The position numbers and the translations under genes are program-made. From positions 806,001-870,000 of the forward strand of contig NZ_AP028934.1 in assembly GCF_036323475.1 (NCBI RefSeq): a stretch of 64,000 nucleotides of DNA, read 5' to 3'. The stretch is from Solobacterium moorei. Its GTDB lineage: Bacteria; Bacillota_I; Bacilli_A; Erysipelotrichales; Erysipelotrichaceae. Under the pieces are notes generated by a model. That model was given only the letters and a program-made list of their open reading frames with translations. It ran no database searches and was not told the DNA's origin. Below, in pieces: positions 5,673-27,965 of this stretch (the first letter of the stretch is position 1; each line of letters begins with the position of its first letter).

Positions 5673-6080
5673 ATGGTATTCAACAAGATTAAAGAGTTCG
5701 TCGCACCAGTAGATGAAGACGAAGATGAAGGTGAAGAATTACAATTCACAGGAAGAGAGGTACAACCAGTGAGTACTTACGAGTCAAAACAAACAAATTT
5801 GAATAACATTTCTAAAAATACACAAATGGTAATGTTCGAGCCAAGAAGTTTCGAACAAGCTGAGGAGATTGCACGTCACTTAAAACAAACACGTGGCTGC
5901 ATTATCAACTTACACCGTTTACAAAGAGAATATGCACAGCGCACAATTGATTTCTTATCTGGTGTTGTATTTGCGTTAGATGGGACAATTCAGAAGGTTG
6001 GTCATAATGTTATCTTCTGTGCTCCAAGAAATGTTGGTGTTGAAGGGAATATCTCGCTTGATAAGGGTGAAGATGAATAA
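5673..6080 (+). CDS. sepF: Cell division protein SepF
   Basis: 135-residue FtsZ-associated division protein. The acidic linker (residues ~12-25) is followed by the SepF fold with FEPRSFEQAEEIARHLK and IDFLSGVVFALDGTIQKVG. The amphipathic N-terminus (VFNKIKEFV) fits the membrane-targeting helix of the family. ATG 5673 follows GGGAG; the nearby TTG 5667 is less likely. It overlaps ylmH by 8 bases, and sepF-ylmH-divIVA-ileS is a conserved order in Firmicutes division clusters. Confidence 0.93.
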   Translation: MVFNKIKEFVAPVDEDEDEGEELQFTGREVQPVSTYESKQTNLNNISKNTQMVMFEPRSFEQAEEIARHLKQTRGCIINLHRLQREYAQRTIDFLSGVVFALDGTIQKVGHNVIFCAPRNVGVEGNISLDKGEDE

Positions 6081-6813
6081 TCTAGGGAATTACGATTCTC
6101 TGATTGCACATTTGTACGACTTAAAAGAAAAGAGTGAACGTTGGCATAAGAGTGTTTGTTCTGCATTCTTAACGGAAGAAGAACAAGCTATCATTCAAAA
6201 GATATTCACTCCATCACGCTTTGTCCGCTATGATGGCGGATATGATGATGCACGTAAAAAGAAAGTCATCTTTCTCTATGATGAGAAGGATGGCTTTTCA
6301 GATATTGTATGCATGAAGGCTAAAATTGATCAGCGTTTCCGTACAATAGGGCATCGTGATGTATATGGAGCTATCATGAATTTACAGATAGATAAGAGTA
6401 GTTTTGGAGATTTCTGGATTGAGAAAGATGCGATTTACCTCTATACATCAGAGCAGATGGTTGATTTTATCAAAGATTACTTGATTCGTATCAATCAGTT
6501 AACGGTATCATTTGAAAAGATTGATGAGCATCCAAAGCAGGAGTTTAAAACCAAAGAGATTTCCCTAGTTGTGGCAAGTGAAAGAGCGGATGCGTTGGTG
6601 GCTGCTTTAACCCATTCTAGTCGTAGCGATGCGAAGGATTTAATACGCAAAGGATACGTGCAGGTGAATCATATCGAACTTGAAGAGCCTGATAAAATAT
6701 GCAATAATGGGAGTGTTATTTCTATACGTGGAACAGGTAGATTTACCTTTTTGGGATTTAGTCGTAAGACACGTACAGGGAGAATCGTTGCAGAATTTCT
6801 GCAGAATATATAA
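6073..6813 (+). CDS. ylmH: YlmH-like S4-domain RNA-binding protein
   Basis: 246 residues, start ATG 6073 inside the end of sepF with AAGGGTGA upstream. The C-terminal S4 domain (about residues 165-230: RADALVAALTHSSRSDAKDLI, KGYVQVNH) is preceded by the YlmH N-terminal module. YlmH proteins bind the ribosome and act in rescue of stalled large subunits in some Firmicutes; the division-cluster position is conserved. Confidence 0.9.
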   Translation: MNNLGNYDSLIAHLYDLKEKSERWHKSVCSAFLTEEEQAIIQKIFTPSRFVRYDGGYDDARKKKVIFLYDEKDGFSDIVCMKAKIDQRFRTIGHRDVYGAIMNLQIDKSSFGDFWIEKDAIYLYTSEQMVDFIKDYLIRINQLTVSFEKIDEHPKQEFKTKEISLVVASERADALVAALTHSSRSDAKDLIRKGYVQVNHIELEEPDKICNNGSVISIRGTGRFTFLGFSRKTRTGRIVAEFLQNI

Positions 6814-6824
6814 GAGGAGAGAAC

Positions 6825-7307
6825 ATGACGACACGAAGACCGACATTTCGCATCATGAAAAATGGCTATGATCGGTTTGCGGTTGATGATGTGATGGAGC
6901 AATATGCTGCGCAGGTTGCCTTCCTACAAAGAAAGTTGGAACTTTACCAAGAACAGATGGTTGAGACAACGGAGAAGCTGGAGGAATTACAGACACGCTA
7001 CAATGAGATTGAGCGTGCGGTAGATGTGCGGAAAGATGCGGCCGACAGTATTACCAGATTATCTTTGCAGGAAGCTAACGATGTAATGGCGAAAGCACAG
7101 AATAACGCTGATGAGATTGTCAAAGAAGCTTTATCCGTTGCGCGTTCCATATTGCTGGATCTATCGCAATTGTATACTGAAGCTGGTGAGGTCAAAAGTG
7201 ATCTTAGCCAACAACTAACCGATTTACAAAAGAGTTTAGATAACTTTAAACTTCCAAAGCTACCAGATATGGATTGGTTGGAAGAATCTGATAAAGAATT
7301 GCATTGA
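6825..7307 (+). CDS. divIVA: DivIVA-domain protein
   Basis: 160 residues. N-terminal DivIVA membrane-curvature motif (FRIMKNGYDRFAVDDVMEQY) and two coiled-coil stretches (about 28-65 and 80-150). It recruits division or polar growth factors. Preceded by AGGAGAG and followed by the ileS leader. Confidence 0.92.
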   Translation: MTTRRPTFRIMKNGYDRFAVDDVMEQYAAQVAFLQRKLELYQEQMVETTEKLEELQTRYNEIERAVDVRKDAADSITRLSLQEANDVMAKAQNNADEIVKEALSVARSILLDLSQLYTEAGEVKSDLSQQLTDLQKSLDNFKLPKLPDMDWLEESDKELH

Positions 7308-7527: not shown

Positions 7528-10260
7528 ATGGACTACAAAGATACGCTAAATATGCCAAATACAGATTTTGAGATGCGTGGTAATCTTGCACAGAAAGAAC
7601 CGGGTATTTTAAAGAATTGGCAACAAGACAACTATTATCAAAGCTTACTAAAACATCACAAGGGACAGAAGGCATTTATCTTGCATGATGGTCCTCCATA
7701 CGCAAATGGAAACCTGCATGCAGGTACAGCCATGAACCGTACAATCAAGGACTTCATTATTCGTAGTCATGCGATGTCTGGCTACTATACACCATTCTTT
7801 CCAGGATGGGATACACATGGATTACCAATTGAAAACGCAATCCAGAAGTTGGGTGTTGATCGTAAGGCATTGTCTGCTGCGGAATTTAGACGTAAGTGTG
7901 AAGAATATGCACACCAGCAGATTGCACAGCAGATGGAAACAGAAAAGCGTTTGGGTCAAATTGCGGATTATGAACATCCATATATCACACTGAAGAAGGA
8001 ATTTGAAGCTCGTCAGATTCAGTCTTTTGCAACGATGGCTTTAAATGGAATGATCTTCCAAGGATTAAAACCTGTTTATTGGTCACCATACAACGAGACA
8101 GCGGTTGCGGATTCTGAAATTATCTATAAGGATGTTAAGGATGCGACAATCTACCTTAAATTCCCAATTGCTGATGGTAAGGGTGTATTAGGTGCAGATG
8201 ATAACTTTGTAATTTGGACAACAACACCTTGGACAATTCCATCAAACATGGCAGTGTCCGTTCATCCAGATCTTGAGTATGCATTAGTAAAGACAAGCGC
8301 TGGCAACCTCATCGTGCTTGCAAAGTTCGTTGACCGCTTACTTGAAAAATTTAATCTTGAAAATCTTGGTATCTTAAAGACATTTACAGGTAAGGAAATT
8401 GAAGGTGCTACATATCACCATGTTGTATTAGACAAGGAATGTCCATGTCTTTTAGGTACACACGTTACAGATGAAGATGGTACTGGTGTTGTACATACAG
8501 CTGGTGGTCACGGTATGGATGACTATCTTGTATGTATGAAGAATGGAATGCCACCAATCTGTACAGTTGATGAACGCGGTTATATGAATGCAGAGGCAGG
8601 TTCTTACCAGGGAATGTTCTTTGAGGATTGTTCAAAGGCTATCATCCATGACATGAGTGAAAAGGGCTACTTACTACAAGTTGAGAATATTACCCACTCA
8701 TATCCACATGATGATCGCTTAAAGAAAAAGGTTATCTTCCGTGCAGTAAAGCAGTGGTTCTGTTCTATCGAAAGGGTACGTGAAAAGGCATTGGATGAAA
8801 TCAACAACCACGTCAAGTGGCATAATTCCTTTGGTCAAAAGCGTATGAATAATATGATTGCGGATCGTGGTGACTGGTGTATCTCAAGACAGCGTTTATG
8901 GGGTGTTCCAATTCCAATTATCTATTGTGAAGATAATTCACCAATCATGGAGAAGGAAGTCTTTGATCATATCGCAGAACTTATGAATGAGTATGGTTCA
9001 AATGTTTGGTTTGAAAGAGAAGCCAAAGACTTACTACCAGAAGGTTATACAAATGAAAAATCACCAAATGGTGAATTCCGTAAGGAAACAGATATCATGG
9101 ACGTATGGTTCGATTCTGGTTCAAGCTGGAACGAATTGATTGCTCGTGGTGATGGTTATCCATGTGATTTATACTTTGAAGGTTCTGACCAATATCGTGG
9201 TTGGTTCAACTCTTCACTCATTGTTTCAACGGCAGTTAATGGTACAGCTCCATACAAGGAAGTTTTATCGCATGGTTATGTTGTAGACTCAAAGGGTGAA
9301 AAGATGTCTAAGTCTGTTGGAAATGTTGTAAATCCAATGGATATCATCAACCAGAATGGTGCCGATGTATTCCGTCTTTGGGCAATGTCCTCTGACTTTA
9401 AGGAAGACTTAAAGCTAGGTCCAAGCAATATCAAGCAGGTTTCTGATCAGTATCGTAAGATTCGTAATACATTCCGTTTCTTACTAGGTAATGTAAATGG
9501 AGAAGATTTCAATCCATCAACAGACATGGTTGCCTTTGAAGATCTTGAACGTGTTGACCAACAGGTTCTTGTATTACTCAATGATTTGGTAGCAGATGTA
9601 CGTAAGGATGTATTAGAATACAACTACTTGTCCGCAAACAAGCATTTGATGTACTTCATGGTTAATATCTTATCTTCTTACTACTGTGATTTTACAAAGG
9701 ATATCTTATACGTAAGTGCGAAGGGTGATCACCGTAGAAGACAAGTACAGTCTGTATACTGGAACTGTGCAGATGCACTTGTAAAACTTTGGGCTCCATT
9801 CTTAGCGTTTACTGCTGAAGAAATCTGGACACATTTCTCACATCTTGGTGCAAACTCCGTACATTACGAAGAGTTTCCAGAAGTGAAGGAATATGCAGAA
9901 GCTGAAATATTACGTGATGAAATCAAACGTCTATTAGAAGTTCGTGCCCTTGTCACAAAGGCAAATGAAGAAGCACGTAATGAAAAGTTGATTGCATCTA
10001 GCCAAGAGGCGAAGATTCTTCTTACACTTCCAAAGGAAGAGAAGGAACTTGTGGAGAAAAACTTAGGTGCTGCAGTAGCACAATGGTTAATTGTTTCACA
10101 GGTTGAACTTGTAGAAGGTGAAACGGCTGTGAAGGTTGAAAAGGCTAGTGGTCAGAAGTGTCCACGTTGTTGGAATTATGATGAACATGTGGATGAAAAT
10201 GGACTGTGTCCACGATGCCATGCTGTTATGGAAGGCTATAAACTCATTCATCAAAATTAA
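7528..10260 (+). CDS. ileS: Isoleucyl-tRNA synthetase
   Basis: 910 residues, class I synthetase charging tRNA-Ile. HIGH-type motif in PPYANGNLHAG (about 55-65), editing domain with TTTPWTIPSN (about 232), KMSKS near residues 592-596, and a C-terminal zinc finger of two CPRC pairs near 885-905. Length is normal. AGAGGAGGG upstream fixes ATG 7528. Controlled by the preceding T-box. Confidence 0.98.
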   Translation: MDYKDTLNMPNTDFEMRGNLAQKEPGILKNWQQDNYYQSLLKHHKGQKAFILHDGPPYANGNLHAGTAMNRTIKDFIIRSHAMSGYYTPFFPGWDTHGLPIENAIQKLGVDRKALSAAEFRRKCEEYAHQQIAQQMETEKRLGQIADYEHPYITLKKEFEARQIQSFATMALNGMIFQGLKPVYWSPYNETAVADSEIIYKDVKDATIYLKFPIADGKGVLGADDNFVIWTTTPWTIPSNMAVSVHPDLEYALVKTSAGNLIVLAKFVDRLLEKFNLENLGILKTFTGKEIEGATYHHVVLDKECPCLLGTHVTDEDGTGVVHTAGGHGMDDYLVCMKNGMPPICTVDERGYMNAEAGSYQGMFFEDCSKAIIHDMSEKGYLLQVENITHSYPHDDRLKKKVIFRAVKQWFCSIERVREKALDEINNHVKWHNSFGQKRMNNMIADRGDWCISRQRLWGVPIPIIYCEDNSPIMEKEVFDHIAELMNEYGSNVWFEREAKDLLPEGYTNEKSPNGEFRKETDIMDVWFDSGSSWNELIARGDGYPCDLYFEGSDQYRGWFNSSLIVSTAVNGTAPYKEVLSHGYVVDSKGEKMSKSVGNVVNPMDIINQNGADVFRLWAMSSDFKEDLKLGPSNIKQVSDQYRKIRNTFRFLLGNVNGEDFNPSTDMVAFEDLERVDQQVLVLLNDLVADVRKDVLEYNYLSANKHLMYFMVNILSSYYCDFTKDILYVSAKGDHRRRQVQSVYWNCADALVKLWAPFLAFTAEEIWTHFSHLGANSVHYEEFPEVKEYAEAEILRDEIKRLLEVRALVTKANEEARNEKLIASSQEAKILLTLPKEEKELVEKNLGAAVAQWLIVSQVELVEGETAVKVEKASGQKCPRCWNYDEHVDENGLCPRCHAVMEGYKLIHQN

Positions 10261-20851: not shown

Positions 20852-22006
20852 CTAATAAGTAATAATGTCTTTTAAGCCTTCGCTTGCTACAACGTAATAG
20901 CCGTTTGTTTCTTTACCATCACCTTGTTTCTTTGCTGGATCCATGACCCATACTGCATTTGCTTTTTTGCCAGTTGCTTTCTTGTAAGCTTCAAGTACTT
21001 TCTTTCCATCTTCGATGGAGAGTGTAAATAGTGTTGTACTTAAGCAATCAGCTACACCAGAATCTTCTGTGAAGATGGTGACACTACGGTAATGCGTAGC
21101 AGGATAATTTGTGGATGGATCAATAATGTGGTGATAACTATTACCATCTGTTGCGATATAGAAGCGCTCATAGTCTCCGCTTGTAACAAAGGAGAAGGAG
21201 CCTTTGGAAGAGATTAGCGCAAGACCATTCGGTAAAGCGCCTTCAGGATCGGCAATACCCACATTCCATGTATTTCCATCAGGTTTATCATTCACTGTAC
21301 GAATGTTTCTACCAACATTGAAGTAACCTGCTTGCATATGTTGACCTACTTCTTCAGCAACTAATTCGGTCGCATATCCTTTTGCAATACCACCAACATC
21401 GAATGACTGACATGGTTGTGTGATATATACTGTGCTTTCTTCATCGTTAATTACAACGTTATCCCAACCCTTACAACCTGCAGCTTGTGTAAGTTCTTCC
21501 TCTGGTGGAAGATTGCCAAGCTGTTTTTCGGCGTTGAGTTTAATACCTTCTTCACGATACTTATGCCAAACCTTAAGAAGGGCGCCCATGGTAATATCAA
21601 ATTCACCATTGGAATAATCGTAGAACGCTTTTGCCATATGCAACATGTCAATAATTGGCTTATCAACCTTGACTGGTTTGATACCAGCGTTATCATTGAC
21701 TGTCTTTAGGTTATTGATACCATCGTAGTCGTTATAAATATCAAATAATTGGTTGTAATAACGAAGTAGGATAGTGCTGTCCTTAAAATGAGTGGCTGCA
21801 GAATCTGTATTTGTTGTATATTCCATGTAACTATAGATTGTATCGAAACCTACATCAGAACTCACATTTTCATATTTGGCTAGGGTTTCACTGTTGTTTG
21901 AAGTGTTGTTAGAAGTGCTGTTTTTACTCTCTTTTGTTGTACAGCCAGCAAGTAGTGTACAAACGCTTAATGTGCTAACTAATAATTTTGTAATTTTTCT
22001 TTTCAT
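20852..22006 (-). CDS. apbE: FAD:protein FMN transferase, lipoprotein form
   Basis: 384 residues. Lipobox LLAGC near residue 22 places it on the outer membrane face. ApbE attaches FMN to threonine in S/T-GAT motifs of Rnf and Nqr subunits. DVGGIAKGYATELV and the C-terminal VADCLSTTLF motif are visible. A segment normally near NLGGN reads NVGRN. It is transcribed away from the rnf operon from a shared intergenic region, and its substrates are probably RnfD and RnfG. Confidence 0.93.
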   Translation of the reverse strand: MKRKITKLLVSTLSVCTLLAGCTTKESKNSTSNNTSNNSETLAKYENVSSDVGFDTIYSYMEYTTNTDSAATHFKDSTILLRYYNQLFDIYNDYDGINNLKTVNDNAGIKPVKVDKPIIDMLHMAKAFYDYSNGEFDITMGALLKVWHKYREEGIKLNAEKQLGNLPPEEELTQAAGCKGWDNVVINDEESTVYITQPCQSFDVGGIAKGYATELVAEEVGQHMQAGYFNVGRNIRTVNDKPDGNTWNVGIADPEGALPNGLALISSKGSFSFVTSGDYERFYIATDGNSYHHIIDPSTNYPATHYRSVTIFTEDSGVADCLSTTLFTLSIEDGKKVLEAYKKATGKKANAVWVMDPAKKQGDGKETNGYYVVASEGLKDIITY

Positions 22007-22097: not shown

Positions 22098-23405
22098 ATG
22101 TCAATATTTACAGGACCAATGAAGCTTCATTTAAATGGACATAAGGATTGGACACTTCATAAAGAAGTATTGAAGTCTATCGATCCAGATGTTGTTTGGA
22201 TTCCACTTGTAAACGGTGCTGCCCCATGTCAACCACTTGTTCAAGTTGGAGATGAAGTTAAGATTGGACAAAAGATAGCAGAAAGAAATGATGCATTCTA
22301 TTTACCACTCTTTGCGTCTGTTTCAGGTACTGTTACAGGTATCGAAAAGTTCTTGGGTGCAGGTGGTACAATGATTGACCATTTACGTATTCAAAATGAT
22401 CACAAGCATACAGTAGAACGTGCGTTTGCGAAATTTGATTATGAAAAGGCTAGCTGGCAGGAATTACATGCATTCGCCAAGGATTCCGGTATGCTTGGTT
22501 TAGGTGGTGCTGGATTTCCGTCTTATGTAAAGTATAACAAGCCAGAGAATGTTGACCTCTTTATCGTTAATGCGGTTGAGTGTGAACCATTCTTAACATC
22601 AGATTATAAAAATATTGAAGAAAACATGGACTTACTCAAGATAGGTACACTTGCGTTCTTCAAGATGAGTAATGCAAAGGCTGGTTGTGTCGCAATCAAG
22701 GAAGATAAGAAGGAACAGATTGCCCAATTACAAGAAACCTTTAAGGGAACACCAATTGAGGTGCGTATCGTTCCTAACGTTTACCCAATGGGTTGGGAAA
22801 GAGCGCTTGTATACCAGTTAACAAAGAAGCGTTATGACAGATTGCCGATCGAAGCAGGTTGTATTGTTAACAACGCATCTACAGCGATTGCATTTGGTAA
22901 TGCGATTGTAAATGGTATGCCAGTTACACATAAGTACTTAACTGTATCCGGTGATGCGGTTAAGAATCCACAGAATGTATATGTTCCTGTTGGAACAAAG
23001 GTACATGAGATTATCGACGCTGTTGGTGGATATAAAGATGGTGTGGATGATGTAGTGTTACTCGCTGGTGGACCAATGATGGGCCGTGCAGTTCCTAACG
23101 ATCAATTCGTAGTAATGGCACAGAACAATGGTCTTACAATTCAGAAGTATGAAAAGCCAGATACAGTTGCTTGTTTACGTTGTGGACGTTGTACGGAAAC
23201 ATGTCCATCTGGATTACAACCAGTACGTATCGCTTCTGAACATAAGTCTGTAGACTATGATACATTAATGCGTTTGGATGTAATGAACTGTATTGAATGC
23301 GGTCTATGTACATATGTATGTCCATCTAAGATTGAAGTAACTGAGAATGTTAGACGTGCAAAGACATTTGTGCGTGCAAAACTAGCATCACAGGCAAAGA
23401 AATAG
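22098..23405 (+). CDS. rnfC: Rnf complex subunit RnfC
   Basis: 435-residue NADH-side subunit of the ion-translocating ferredoxin:NAD+ oxidoreductase. Glycine-rich LGLGGAGFPSYVK motif near 134-146 for NADH/flavin binding, and two 4Fe-4S motifs (CLRCGRCTETCP and CIECGLCTYVCP) near 365-410. GAGGAAAGG selects ATG 22098. First gene of the operon. Confidence 0.96.
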   Translation: MSIFTGPMKLHLNGHKDWTLHKEVLKSIDPDVVWIPLVNGAAPCQPLVQVGDEVKIGQKIAERNDAFYLPLFASVSGTVTGIEKFLGAGGTMIDHLRIQNDHKHTVERAFAKFDYEKASWQELHAFAKDSGMLGLGGAGFPSYVKYNKPENVDLFIVNAVECEPFLTSDYKNIEENMDLLKIGTLAFFKMSNAKAGCVAIKEDKKEQIAQLQETFKGTPIEVRIVPNVYPMGWERALVYQLTKKRYDRLPIEAGCIVNNASTAIAFGNAIVNGMPVTHKYLTVSGDAVKNPQNVYVPVGTKVHEIIDAVGGYKDGVDDVVLLAGGPMMGRAVPNDQFVVMAQNNGLTIQKYEKPDTVACLRCGRCTETCPSGLQPVRIASEHKSVDYDTLMRLDVMNCIECGLCTYVCPSKIEVTENVRRAKTFVRAKLASQAKK

Positions 23406-23417
23406 GAGGCAGGAAAA

Positions 23418-25214
23418 ATGAAATTTTCATATAAAGTAGCGCCTAACTATGCGGCTAAACAATCCACAACAGGTATTATGTTGGAACTTAGCTTAGCTTT
23501 GGTTGTTGTGACAGTTGCTTCTGCAATCTGGTATGGAATGACAGGCGGTGCTGAATTAGGTATTCGTGTTATTCTACTATCTATCGCTGCTGTAGTAACT
23601 GCATTGTGTACTGAAACATTGTACTTACTTGCAAGAAAGAAAAAGGACATCGCAAAAGAATTGTTACATTCCTATGGTTGGGTAACAGGTTTAATTATTC
23701 CATTAATTACAAGAATTAATGTTAGTTTCTACGCAATTATTATTGCGACTGCAATTGCAATCTTGTTTGGTAAGATGTTATTTGGTGGATTTGGTCAAAA
23801 CATTTTTAACCCAGCAGCATTTGCTGAGGCAATTATCATGAACTCATTTAGTGCAAGTGTTGCAGCTGATATTCAAACAGGTGCTACACCATTAGCAGCT
23901 ATGAAGTCGTATGGTTGGGTAGTTGATGGCAGTGCATTACAAAATGTATTAGGTCAATTTGGCAACTTATCCGGCATGTTCTTAGGAAACTATCAGAGTG
24001 CTATCGGTGGATCATGTGCATTATTATTAATTCTCGTGGCAGTATATCTCATTGCTAGACGTATTATTGACTATCGTTTAACAGTGACGTATATCGTAAC
24101 AGTATTCGTGGTATCTCTTATTGTTGGTTTGATGCATGGTGCAGGCATTGAATACGCAATCGTTAACGTATTAATGGGTGGGGTATTATTCGCTGGCGTG
24201 TTCATGTTAACAGACCCAGTTACTTCACCAGTATCAATCCCTGGTAGATATGTTTTTGCAGTAGGTGCCGCAGCTCTTACATTGATTATCCGATGGAAGT
24301 CTAACTTACCAGATGGTGCGTTATTCTCCATCTTGATTATGAATATGCTAACGCCTGCAATTGATCAGTTACTTGATGGAAGCCAGATTAAGGATGCAGC
24401 AAAGATTGCACGTAAGGCGGTTATCGCAATGTGTGTATTCTTAATAGCAGTTCTTCTTGTTGGATCAAGTTTAGTAGCAAAGACTCCAGCAGCTGCTGAA
24501 GAACCTAAGAAGGACGATAAGCCAGTGGAAACAGTAGCATTAAGTGCAGAAGACTATAGCGAAAATAACGCAGAGTGCACAGAAACAAGTAATGATGGTG
24601 CAACTGCAGTATATGCATGTAAGGCAAAGGGATTTGAAGGTGTTAACGAAGCTACAGTTACAATTGATGTAGCGAAGAAGACAGTTGTATCCATTGCGGT
24701 TATTAAGTTTAGTGATACGGAAGAGGTTGGTGATCAAGCTACTACAGAAGAACAACTTAAGAAATATGTTGGTGCAACTGCAGATAGTAAGATTGATTCA
24801 ACAACAGGAGCAACATTTACAAGTAAGTCACTACGTGCAATGATTGCGAAGGTATTAAAGTCTGCTTCCGCAGTAGCATTAGGTAAAGAAGATTTTAAAG
24901 AAAACAAAGCAGAATGTTCAGAAACAAGTAATGATGGCACAATCGCTGTCTATGCATGTAAGGCACATGGCTTTGAAGGTGTAAACGAAGCAACAGTTAC
25001 AGTAGATATAGCTAGCAAGTCCGTCAAGAGTATCGAAGTAACAAAGTTTAGCGATACAGAAGACGTAGGCGACCAAGCAACAAAAGCAGCTGAGTTAGAT
25101 AAGTACAAGGGAGTAACACTCGAAAGTAAAGTGGACTCTACAACAGGAGCAACATTTACAAGTACATCACTCAGAGCGATGATTACAACAGCCCTACAGG
25201 CTGCAACAAAGTAA
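23418..25214 (+). CDS. rnfD: RnfD fused to two C-terminal FMN-binding domains
   Basis: Residues 1 to about 355 form the membrane subunit RnfD, with about nine spans and the flavinylation motif TGATPLA near 156. RnfD normally ends there. Here a linker is followed by two FMN_bind-like domains (about 374-485 and 490-598). Each has a Cys-x(n)-Cys pair (AEC...YAC) and the motif DSTTGATFTS, a typical covalent FMN site. The two domains are roughly 70% alike, and the second is identical at the DNA level to the end of rnfG. AGGAGGC precedes the start. Confidence 0.93.
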   Translation: MKFSYKVAPNYAAKQSTTGIMLELSLALVVVTVASAIWYGMTGGAELGIRVILLSIAAVVTALCTETLYLLARKKKDIAKELLHSYGWVTGLIIPLITRINVSFYAIIIATAIAILFGKMLFGGFGQNIFNPAAFAEAIIMNSFSASVAADIQTGATPLAAMKSYGWVVDGSALQNVLGQFGNLSGMFLGNYQSAIGGSCALLLILVAVYLIARRIIDYRLTVTYIVTVFVVSLIVGLMHGAGIEYAIVNVLMGGVLFAGVFMLTDPVTSPVSIPGRYVFAVGAAALTLIIRWKSNLPDGALFSILIMNMLTPAIDQLLDGSQIKDAAKIARKAVIAMCVFLIAVLLVGSSLVAKTPAAAEEPKKDDKPVETVALSAEDYSENNAECTETSNDGATAVYACKAKGFEGVNEATVTIDVAKKTVVSIAVIKFSDTEEVGDQATTEEQLKKYVGATADSKIDSTTGATFTSKSLRAMIAKVLKSASAVALGKEDFKENKAECSETSNDGTIAVYACKAHGFEGVNEATVTVDIASKSVKSIEVTKFSDTEDVGDQATKAAELDKYKGVTLESKVDSTTGATFTSTSLRAMITTALQAATK

Positions 25215-25216
25215 GG
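24897..25216 (+). repeat. 320-bp direct repeat, copy 1 (end of rnfD)
   Basis: Base-for-base identical, by reading, to 25845-26164. It covers most of one FMN-binding domain, the stop codon and the next GG. The copies are 948 bp apart in the same orientation. Confidence 0.95.
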
Positions 25217-25226
25217 GGGTGCTCGT

Positions 25227-26162
25227 ATGAAAATTGATAAGACTTCAGGAGTATATAAAGCATGCATGCTTGGTATTCTCTGTGCTGTATGTGGAATTCT
25301 ACTATCAACAGTAAATGCGATTACCGCTCCTATTATTGAAGAAAACGCATTGGCATCTGTTAAGTCATCGCTTGAAATAATTTATCCAGGAGCAACATTT
25401 ACAGATGTTACAGAAGACAAGATTGGTCTTCTTGAATTAAAAGATGGTGAAGATACTCTCATCGATGGTATTTACAACGCTGAAGGTAAGGGAACGATCT
25501 TTACATTACATTCTACGGGTTATAACGCCGATGGATTTAAGTTTATGATTGCGTATAACAATGATGGCTCCATTGGTGGATATAGTGTGCTAGAACAAGC
25601 TGAAACAGCTGGTAAGGGTGATAAGGCATTTAAGGATCCATATGTAAGTGATGTATTAAAACTTACCTCTTCTGATACAATGCCACTCATCACTGGTGCA
25701 ACAATTACAACTACTGCAGTGGGGAAAGCGGTTGATCAAGCTAGACAAGTATTCAATAAGATGAATAACATCTCTTACGATGAAAATGCGACAGCTACAC
25801 CTGCTCCAAAAGCAGAGCCTGTTGAACTAGCAAAGGAAGACTTCAAAGAAAACAAAGCAGAATGTTCAGAAACAAGTAATGATGGCACAATCGCTGTCTA
25901 TGCATGTAAGGCACATGGCTTTGAAGGTGTAAACGAAGCAACAGTTACAGTAGATATAGCTAGCAAGTCCGTCAAGAGTATCGAAGTAACAAAGTTTAGC
26001 GATACAGAAGACGTAGGCGACCAAGCAACAAAAGCAGCTGAGTTAGATAAGTACAAGGGAGTAACACTCGAAAGTAAAGTGGACTCTACAACAGGAGCAA
26101 CATTTACAAGTACATCACTCAGAGCGATGATTACAACAGCCCTACAGGCTGCAACAAAGTAA
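25227..26162 (+). CDS. rnfG: RnfG with an extra C-terminal FMN-binding domain
   Basis: 311 residues. The N-terminal membrane anchor and first FMN domain (to about 175, flavinylation motif ITGATIT) are ordinary RnfG. A Thr/Pro/Ala linker (about 188-200) leads to a second FMN domain with DSTTGATFTS, identical to the RnfD terminal domain. Its linker and flanks differ from those of rnfD, so the repeat edges are sharp. Confidence 0.94.
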   Translation: MKIDKTSGVYKACMLGILCAVCGILLSTVNAITAPIIEENALASVKSSLEIIYPGATFTDVTEDKIGLLELKDGEDTLIDGIYNAEGKGTIFTLHSTGYNADGFKFMIAYNNDGSIGGYSVLEQAETAGKGDKAFKDPYVSDVLKLTSSDTMPLITGATITTTAVGKAVDQARQVFNKMNNISYDENATATPAPKAEPVELAKEDFKENKAECSETSNDGTIAVYACKAHGFEGVNEATVTVDIASKSVKSIEVTKFSDTEDVGDQATKAAELDKYKGVTLESKVDSTTGATFTSTSLRAMITTALQAATK

Positions 26163-26164
26163 GG
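25845..26164 (+). repeat. 320-bp direct repeat, copy 2 (end of rnfG)
   Basis: Identical to 24897-25216. Silent positions match as well, so the copies are recent or kept alike by gene conversion. Confidence 0.95.
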
Positions 26165-26172
26165 AGGAAGGT

Positions 26173-26835
26173 ATGAGCGAAAAGAAAATTAAAGGTCAAG
26201 GCTTCTTCTCTAGATTAGCAACAGAGAACCCAGTATTTGCAACTTACTTAGGTATCTGTTCAACATTAGCAATCACAACAAGCTTAAATAGTGCAATCGG
26301 TATGGGTGTTGCGGTAATTGTTGTATTAACTTTATCCAACATCTTAGTATCGTTAATTGCTCCAATCACGCCAGATGATATTCATATTCCAGTGTATATC
26401 GTTATTATTGCGACATTAGTTACTATCGTTTCGATGTTTATGCATGCATACACACCAAGTCTATTTACAGCTTTAGGTGCATTCTTAGACTTAGTTGTTG
26501 TAAATTGTATTATCTTAGGACGTGCCGAAGCATACGCATGCAAGCACACAGTGCTTGAATCAATCGTTGATGGATTACAACAGGGTTGTGCTTACACATT
26601 CGCACTTCTTGCAATGTCACTTATCAGACAGTTATTAGGTACTGGTGGGTTATCTTTCTCAAATCCATTTACAAACAACGTTGTATTTGCATTCAGAATT
26701 ATTCCAGAAGGATTTGAAATTCCAATGTTCACAGAGCAGTTTGGTGCATTTATCACATTTGCATGTTTAGCTGCTGGTGTAGCTACTTACAAGAACCATC
26801 TTGTAAAGCCAGCGAAGAAAGGAGCTGCTAAATAA
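26173..26835 (+). CDS. rnfE: Rnf complex subunit RnfE
   Basis: 220-residue membrane subunit with six predicted spans. It resembles RnfE/NqrD (NPVFATYLGICSTLAITTSL, VVNCIILGRAEAYA). The stop overlaps the rnfA start. Confidence 0.94.
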   Translation: MSEKKIKGQGFFSRLATENPVFATYLGICSTLAITTSLNSAIGMGVAVIVVLTLSNILVSLIAPITPDDIHIPVYIVIIATLVTIVSMFMHAYTPSLFTALGAFLDLVVVNCIILGRAEAYACKHTVLESIVDGLQQGCAYTFALLAMSLIRQLLGTGGLSFSNPFTNNVVFAFRIIPEGFEIPMFTEQFGAFITFACLAAGVATYKNHLVKPAKKGAAK

Positions 26836-27407
26836 TGAATTTATTTACACTCTTGATCAGTGGATTACTGATTAACAATATTATTCTTACAAAGTTCTTA
26901 GGTATGTGCCCATTTATGGGAGTATCTACAAAACTTGAATCTGCAGTAGGTATGGGTTTTGCTGTTATCTTTGTTATCTTCGGTGCATCCATTCTTGCAT
27001 GGGGACTTTATCACTTTATCTTGGTTCCATTTGAACTAGAGTTTATGGAACTAATCTGTTTCATCTTATTGATTGCAGCATTCGTTCAGTTCGTTGAACT
27101 GTTCGTTAAAAAGTTCTCACCAGAGCTTTATAAGTCATTAGGTATCTACTTACCACTCATTACAACAAACTGTGCAGTACTTTACGTAGCAATGGATAAC
27201 ATTACCCAGAAGTATACATTAGCACAAACGATGGTAAATTCTATTGCAGTACCTGCTGGCTTTATGATGATGCTAGTTATCTTTGCGACAATCCGCAAAC
27301 GTTTAAATCAGAACGATATTCCGAAGGCATTCCAGGGCAATCCTATCGCTTTCATCTGTGCAGCAATTATGGCAATTGCATTCTCTGCATTTGCTGGATT
27401 AGTATAA
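26835..27407 (+). CDS. rnfA: Rnf complex subunit RnfA
   Basis: 190-residue membrane subunit with six spans and inverted topology relative to RnfE. LLINNIILTKFLGMCPFMGVS and LPLITTNCAVLYVA carry the conserved cysteines that hold the intramembrane Fe-S centre in the RnfA/RnfE pair. Confidence 0.95.
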   Translation: MNLFTLLISGLLINNIILTKFLGMCPFMGVSTKLESAVGMGFAVIFVIFGASILAWGLYHFILVPFELEFMELICFILLIAAFVQFVELFVKKFSPELYKSLGIYLPLITTNCAVLYVAMDNITQKYTLAQTMVNSIAVPAGFMMMLVIFATIRKRLNQNDIPKAFQGNPIAFICAAIMAIAFSAFAGLV

Positions 27408-27412
27408 GAGCC

Positions 27413-27598
27413 GTGCTTAGAATCGTTGTTGCGGCTTTATTAGCTGTAGGTTTCTTTGCCCTAAATGTATGGCTATTAAGGTTAAATCAGAAAACACCAA
27501 AGCCTGAAGGCTGCGAAGACCTAAAGGCAGAGTGTTCTGCATGTGGTATCAGCGAATGTTGTGTTCGCCAAGCACCACACAAAACAGAGGAGGAATAA
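27413..27598 (+). CDS. Small cysteine-rich membrane protein inside the rnf operon
   Basis: 61 residues from GTG 27413. Residues 1-20 form one membrane span; the tail has a cysteine cluster (CEDLKAECSACGISECC). It starts 5 bases after rnfA and its TAA shares a base with the rnfB ATG, so it is translated with the operon. I know no established family for it. It may bind metal or a cluster next to the short RnfB. Confidence 0.75.
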   Translation: MLRIVVAALLAVGFFALNVWLLRLNQKTPKPEGCEDLKAECSACGISECCVRQAPHKTEEE

Positions 27599-27885
27599 TG
27601 GTAGTAGCAATTTTAAAAGCTTTTGGCTTGATGTTAGTGTTAGGTGCTGTTTTAGGTGGTATACTGGCATTTGCTTCCGTTAAGTTCTATGTTAAGGAAG
27701 ACAATCGCAAGGAAGAGTTAACAGCCCTATTGCCTGGTTATAATTGCGGTGCTTGTGGTAATCCAGGCTGTGCTGCGATGGCTGTAAAGTTACTTGCTGG
27801 TGAATCACAAGTTGAACAGTGTAAACCAAGTAAGCCAGACCAAAGAGAAGCAATTAAAGCATATCTTGCTGAACATGTAGGTTAA
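27598..27885 (+). CDS. rnfB: Short RnfB lacking the ferredoxin domains
   Basis: 95 residues. N-terminal membrane span, then the first RnfB cluster motif (CGACGNPGCAAMA with a downstream Cys, EQCKPS). Typical RnfB has about 260 or more residues with two further 4Fe-4S ferredoxin modules that take electrons from ferredoxin. Here the frame ends cleanly with TAA and an operon terminator follows, with no ferredoxin-like remnant after it. AGAGGAGG precedes ATG 27598. Confidence 0.88.
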   Translation: MVVAILKAFGLMLVLGAVLGGILAFASVKFYVKEDNRKEELTALLPGYNCGACGNPGCAAMAVKLLAGESQVEQCKPSKPDQREAIKAYLAEHVG

Positions 27886-27888
27886 GAA

Positions 27889-27919
27889 AAATTCCTGAGC
27901 GTAAGCTTGGGAATTTTTT
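27889..27919 (+). terminator. Terminator of the rnf operon
   Basis: AAATTCCTGAGC / GCTTGGGAATTT stem of 12 pairs with a GTAA loop, followed by T. Confidence 0.88.
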
Positions 27920-27965
27920 GTGGAGAATACCATCAAATTACATATACAATCTTGAGGATAATTTG

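Follow-up and report, generated by a model that had tools for sequence, protein, structure and literature searches.

The Rnf operon of Solobacterium moorei encodes a minimal RnfB of 95 residues, made up of a membrane helix and a single [4Fe-4S] domain, and directly ahead of it a 61-residue Cys-rich membrane protein. Both recur across the class to which the organism belongs. We consider it probable that ferredoxin docks on this minimal RnfB and that the 61-residue protein is an Fe–S or metal accessory. This reading builds on direct observations of anatomy, conservation, a single lineage, a basic sequence signature and co-occurrence. In the 64,000-nt stretch of DNA analysed (the window), the operon occupies positions 22107–27885 of the + strand in the order rnfC-rnfD-rnfG-rnfE-rnfA-[61-residue ORF]-rnfB, with these features:

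20852–22006, − strand: apbE, FAD:protein FMN transferase (PF02424, E = 4.2e-59)
22107–23405, + strand: rnfC, 432 residues (TIGR01945, 356 bits, over cut-off)
23418–25214, + strand: rnfD, 598 residues (PF03116, E = 7.7e-68; PF04205 in two stretches)
25227–26162, + strand: rnfG, 311 residues, two FMN_bind domains (PF04205 in two stretches)
26173–26835, + strand: rnfE, 220 residues (PF02508, E = 2.1e-54)
26835–27407, + strand: rnfA, 190 residues (TIGR01943, 244.6 bits, over cut-off)
27413–27598, + strand: 61-residue single-TM Cys-rich protein, GTG start (family A1; dN/dS)
27598–27885, + strand: rnfB, 95 residues, ATG start (PF04060; PDB alignment; C75-K76-P-S-K79)
27886–27920, + strand: terminator-like hairpin AAAAATTCC...GGAATTTTTT (read from the letters)

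All six Rnf core families are matched within this single operon (Pfam, NCBIfam), and by its core subunits the locus is Rnf. Among the NCBIfam models, RnfC and RnfA score above the rnf-model cut-offs and RnfE above that of the RsxE model; RnfD, RnfG and RnfB score below the cut-offs of their own models. The five subunits other than RnfB are intact. RnfC has an FMN/NADH domain and two CxxCxxCxxxC [4Fe-4S] motifs, and the two FMN_bind domains of RnfD are C-terminal. The apbE gene, upstream on the other strand, is expected to serve flavinylation of RnfD and RnfG. Within the operon, the end of rnfD (24873–25172) and the end of rnfG (25821–26120) form a 300-nt direct repeat, 97% identical, that encodes an FMN_bind domain, and a third copy (24534–24833, 73%) precedes the one at the rnfD end; these repeats reflect recent duplication or gene conversion between adjacent genes.

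RnfB ends after its first cluster motif, as the sequence-only reading of this DNA had stated. Its sole Pfam match is PF04060 (E = 1.1e-12, residues 45–77), with no Fer4 domain, and it consists of one hydrophobic N-terminal helix (residues 1–19) followed by one FdI [4Fe-4S] domain with cluster cysteines 50, 53, 58 and 75. The same reading had seen no ferredoxin-like remnant ahead of the terminator, and the letters and ORFs of the window indeed hold no ferredoxin-like frame between the rnfB stop and the hairpin, which begins a few bases 3′ of that stop and is missing from the list of the automatic scan. RnfB aligns to residues 2–77 of 9eri_B (chain of 333 residues), 7–87 of 8ahx_B (174 residues) and 14–67 of 7zc6_B (274 residues), the last being the Clostridium tetanomorphum Rnf structure, as given in the available text of its report (PMC9588780). 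An AlphaFold model built from a six-row alignment reached a mean pLDDT of 71, and a Foldseek comparison of this model with the PDB returned nothing at E below 0.001. The cluster motif does not vary across alignment A3, and the gene is under purifying selection (dN 0.09, dS 1.75) relative to its nearest relative, L002, an Erysipelotrichaceae MAG whose RnfB is 86% identical.

Among characterized complexes, those of C. tetanomorphum and Acetobacterium woodii share the same six core subunits, and the window RnfB corresponds in alignment to the N-terminal, FdI-bearing portion of solved RnfBs; the RnfBs of these two organisms continue into further cluster domains, for five or six clusters, in the accessible portions of the papers describing them (PMC12174285, PMC9588780, PMC7414866). 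A close likeness is to Thermotoga maritima, whose RnfB also comprises a TM segment and one predicted [4Fe-4S] domain. According to the part of the primary report available to us, this protein has a mass of 10.56 kDa and one predicted cluster, the gene order is rnfCDGEAB, and the complex, once purified, transfers electrons from C. pasteurianum ferredoxin to NAD+ and transports 22Na+ (Kuhns 2020, PMC7414866). T. maritima belongs to a different phylum, and its ferredoxin:NAD+ activity and Na+ transport were demonstrated biochemically, in the same available text. The C. tetanomorphum paper, in its available sections, likewise describes the T. maritima RnfB as FdI only and portrays FdI as a mobile shuttle from the outer RnfB clusters to RnfA/E (PMC9588780); the same shuttle is described in the available text of a 2025 review (PMC12174285).

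This published T. maritima record, as far as its available text goes, indicates that a one-cluster RnfB suffices for ferredoxin entry, and because that Rnf is active without ferredoxin-like modules, such modules are not strictly defining for Rnf. The earlier idea that ferredoxin entry is missing thus finds no support: an Rnf with a one-cluster RnfB oxidizes ferredoxin in T. maritima in the available account, and the S. moorei genome encodes both a donor and a carrier. These are pyruvate:ferredoxin oxidoreductase (PFOR; TIGR02176, 1166 bits, over the equivalog cut-off) and a soluble 59-residue 2[4Fe-4S] ferredoxin with a net charge of −5; a group A [FeFe] hydrogenase is also present. The suggestion of a ‘separate ferredoxin module’ stands only in the sense of this ordinary soluble ferredoxin, for which the lone domain of RnfB is the probable docking site. 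The stand-alone polyferredoxin proposed earlier as a search target was not found among the genome’s matches to Fer4_7, the one Fer4 family searched. Those matches are RnfC, PFOR, the 59-residue ferredoxin, the [FeFe] hydrogenase, a YjjW-type activase, a NapH-like protein and a GltD-like protein. Compensating clusters in RnfC were considered and rejected, since its cluster motifs number two, the same as in operons with long RnfB. As a separate observation, the gene for the NapH-like membrane 4Fe-4S protein adjoins one for a TlpA/ResA-like thiol-disulfide protein (L214, 5619–7475).

In the mechanism that we favour, RnfB would act as a membrane anchor carrying FdI as a mobile shuttle to the [2Fe-2S] cluster between RnfA and RnfE. 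Ferredoxin reduced by PFOR would in this organism dock directly on FdI, which would make a C-terminal relay of further clusters unneeded, and docking would probably involve the basic residues K76 and K79 beside the fourth cluster cysteine. From there, electrons would follow the usual route through RnfA/E to the RnfG FMN, the RnfD flavins, the RnfC clusters and FMN and finally NAD+.

The proposed docking residues belong to a signature, C-[K/R]-P-x-[K/R], that starts at the fourth cluster cysteine (C4) of terminal FdI domains and reads C75-K76-P-S-K79 in the window. Among unique short RnfB domains, K or R occupies C4+4 in 78 of 97 and C4+1 in 93 of 97, a count in which, for one or more of the four exceptions, the program that picked C4 took the wrong cysteine, and which does not represent 93 independent events, as the short domains form one clade and inherited the signature. 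The corresponding counts in other (internal) FdI domains, mostly CPVGG or CxPGG at C4, are 0/28 and 0/28, where three of the 28, judged by letters, are the first domains of tandem RnfBs. These tandem proteins, found in group f9 (L137, L146, L199), carry two PF04060 domains with a Lys-rich linker between them; K/R at C4+1 is confined to their terminal domain, which reads CRPL. The net charge of the FdI domain as a whole is nearly equal in the two sets (−2.0 for short versus −2.8 for others). Because soluble ferredoxin is acidic, as is the genome’s own, we infer that the basic residues at C4 form a ferredoxin-docking patch, against which weigh this near-equal charge and the origin of the short domains in a single clade.

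We turn now to the 61-residue ORF, described in the sequence-only reading as a Cys-rich membrane protein translationally coupled to rnfB; that description holds. Its stop codon shares one base with the start codon of rnfB (TAATG), with GAGGAGG ahead. The protein has one hydrophobic helix and then cysteines 34, 41, 44, 49 and 50, of which four are conserved, giving a CxxCxxxxC core with one upstream Cys. The ORF is a real gene, because it is under purifying selection (dN 0.13, dS 0.55 over 61 codons against L002) and because four-Cys homologues are conserved at the same position in many families. Profile A1, from 27 sequences, has six invariant positions (T28, P29, C34, C41, C44 and C49). The family comprises 111 unique members, 95 of them rnf-linked; within the latter, 83 have four Cys, 11 have three, lacking the first of the four, and one has neither pattern. 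The protein has no Pfam or NCBIfam match at E 0.1, and its profile has no match to PDB sequences; its AlphaFold model, from a six-row alignment, has a mean pLDDT of 68 with a low-confidence tail.

Several lines of evidence tie this family to Rnf. First, A1 was found in 178 of the 395 genomes sampled at class level; of the 178, 175 belong to the 213 genomes with PF04060 and three to the 182 without (complete presence lists; Fisher p about 6e-69, with phylogeny uncorrected). Second, in annotated operons, which were hand-picked for breadth and not random, the small gene adjoins rnfB in 27 of 36 with short or tandem RnfB and was not found there in the other nine. Third, the small protein tracks Rnf even where it is encoded elsewhere: in group f22, rnfB directly follows rnfA, and the small gene lies between phosphoglucomutase-like and uracil-DNA-glycosylase-like genes (named by eye). 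By contrast, only two of 26 operons with longer RnfB have a TM+Cys ORF, that at L213 being probably no gene and that at L224 plausible. The small gene is absent between rnfA and rnfB at the long-RnfB Clostridia loci L172 and L229–L231, and the small protein is absent, among the matches listed, from three class-sample genomes with long RnfB. The plausible case is a 62-residue ORF directly 3′ of rnfA in Persicobacter psychrovividus (Bacteroidota; L224, 6359–6547), with the tail KCSGCQCKGDC, in an rnf operon with full-length RnfB.

As for its role, iron handling or Fe–S assembly appears likeliest, because the family profile resembles that of FeoB-associated Cys-rich membrane proteins (PF12669). 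An hhalign comparison gave a probability of 94 and a score of 39.4, above all of 100 tail shuffles (mean 20.8, maximum 30.2); whole-alignment shuffles had a mean of 9.8, with one outlier, 134.3, above the real match. The PF12669 model itself does not match the window protein and matches two of 27 family members when E values up to 10 are admitted, the lower being 0.0068. The two families share a length of about 60 residues, one N-terminal TM segment and a short Cys-rich tail; they differ in Cys spacing, and none of the genomic contexts seen for the small gene is a feo locus. In the available text of one report, the motif of PF12669 peptides is associated with iron binding, with their function unproven (PMC8749426). 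A second resemblance is to NqrM (DUF539, PF04400), the maturation factor for the NQR [2Fe-2S] centre, which is also a single-TM protein with a Cys-rich tail and whose gene accompanies those of a homologous pump, but its Cys spacing differs and its profile similarity is not significant. Homology to NqrM was rejected, the score of 19.5 being no higher than those of tail shuffles (mean 17.2, maximum 25.6). On our preferred reading, the 61-residue protein would be a membrane-anchored metal- or Fe–S-binding accessory that most likely loads or protects the Fe–S centres of Rnf, as NqrM does for NQR, and not a substitute for the lost modules.

The most serious alternative is that the small protein is a seventh subunit with an Fe–S cluster or other metal, relaying electrons from ferredoxin to FdI in place of the missing RnfB modules. 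Such a subunit would explain the position of its gene between rnfA and rnfB, overlapping the latter, the retention of four Cys in most linked members and the distribution over operons (27 of 36 with short or tandem RnfB, plausible in 1 of 26 with longer RnfB, and absent from the three long-RnfB genomes above, among the matches listed). It fits less well with the loss of the first cysteine in 11 of 95 linked members, with the placement of the gene beside unrelated housekeeping genes in several groups, or with extra copies at copper loci, where the gene lies by copper P-type ATPase or copper-chaperone-like genes (named by eye) in G188 and G219 (L134 near 6769–6960; L143 near 5708–5851). T. maritima Rnf, moreover, works with a one-cluster RnfB in the available account, a comparison that concerns RnfB only and not the small gene. 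The dispersed loci, the incompletely conserved fourth ligand and the putative iron-binding kin favour metal handling or Fe–S assembly, and we regard a seventh subunit as unlikely. Near-absence of the gene from long-RnfB operons nevertheless counts against the accessory reading in so far as it would also be expected of a protein whose role is linked to the absent modules; because the gene is restricted to short-RnfB Rnf, the protein may still be a redox relay.

A quite improbable alternative is that this Rnf works without ferredoxin, taking electrons from NADH at RnfC and delivering them, by way of the additional FMN_bind domains of RnfD and RnfG, to extracytosolic acceptors, with RnfB vestigial. 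The two FMN_bind domains in each of these window proteins would suit such a route, as would the RnfG-like proteins of 459–1424 residues in several relatives, and the available text of one paper proposes that multi-flavinylated RNF feeds alternative extracytosolic acceptors (PMC8238504). However, a vestigial RnfB sits poorly with an invariant cluster motif, RnfG and RnfD are of ordinary size in many short-RnfB operons, and PFOR and ferredoxin are present in the genome. The very large or extra RnfG-like proteins, seen in short-RnfB operons at L210, L004, L006, L003, L201 and L206, are possibly multi-flavin extracytosolic electron branches.

The short RnfB is shared by an entire group of bacteria from the gut and the environment. 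The sequence-only reading had named full-length RnfB in related genomes as the sign of a local truncation; the best RnfB match is instead the short form in 31 of 35 same-genus genomes (52–68% identity), the exceptions being two with long RnfB (G004, G031) and two with distant hydrogenase-like matches only. In the class-level sample, the 150 listed PF04060 matches include 126 frames of up to 160 residues, 8 of 161–210, 3 of 265–292 and 13 longer, where frames of 380–660 residues were excluded from RnfB counts (two checked were [FeFe]-hydrogenase-like, the others excluded by length). In a phylum sample of 195 genomes, PF04060 was found in 63, every match within the same class, and all 92 rows divide into 66 of up to 160 residues, none of 161–330 and 26 longer. 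The length survey called for earlier finds the short form recurring: annotated operons have a short (89–127 residues) or tandem (184–192 residues) RnfB in 17 family-level groups, and a long RnfB (260–284 residues) in group f2 (eight loci) and group f1 (two loci).

In a tree of RnfA and RnfE (52 rows, rooted on four NQR rows, leaving out L190 for its split rnfA and L211 and L218, which have no rnfE), all 35 short or tandem operons fall into one group (96/89), which includes a single long-RnfB locus, L007; operons of the same order with long RnfB are grouped apart from these (100/99). Because long RnfB characterizes the other branches of RNF in the sample, the simplest reading of the tree is that RnfB was shortened by one ancestral loss. 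A locally decayed rnfB, through recent truncation or frameshift, has a negligible probability: some members of the order do have full-length RnfB, but these sit on another Rnf lineage in the tree, the short gene is under purifying selection and conserved in 17 family-level groups, and the genome survey and tree rule out local truncation.

We tentatively propose that these operons represent a distinct Rnf type, which may have arisen through one ancestral loss of the relay, a basic docking signature and recruitment of a Cys-rich metalloprotein, either a relay or an Fe–S insertion factor. Already described in the cited literature, as far as its available text goes, is the short RnfB of one organism, T. 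maritima; new are the clade-wide minimal RnfB, the basic signature of terminal FdI domains, the tandem-FdI RnfB of group f9 and the small Rnf-associated family. Literature searches confined to papers outside subscription gave no description of this small protein family and no account of a short RnfB or the small gene in the class. A short RnfB in most Rnf-bearing members of the class implies that Rnf can do without the multi-cluster relay of this subunit and that ferredoxin can dock on FdI; the basic signature offers a way to probe by mutation the ferredoxin-binding site of Rnf. As a candidate novel component of Rnf, the small Cys-rich protein would either load or use Fe–S centres. Annotation rules that demand a full RnfB will label such operons incomplete. 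At one of the long-RnfB loci, L190 (G051), rnfA lies in two frames (8169–8742) in an otherwise complete operon, the result of a frameshift or an assembly error.
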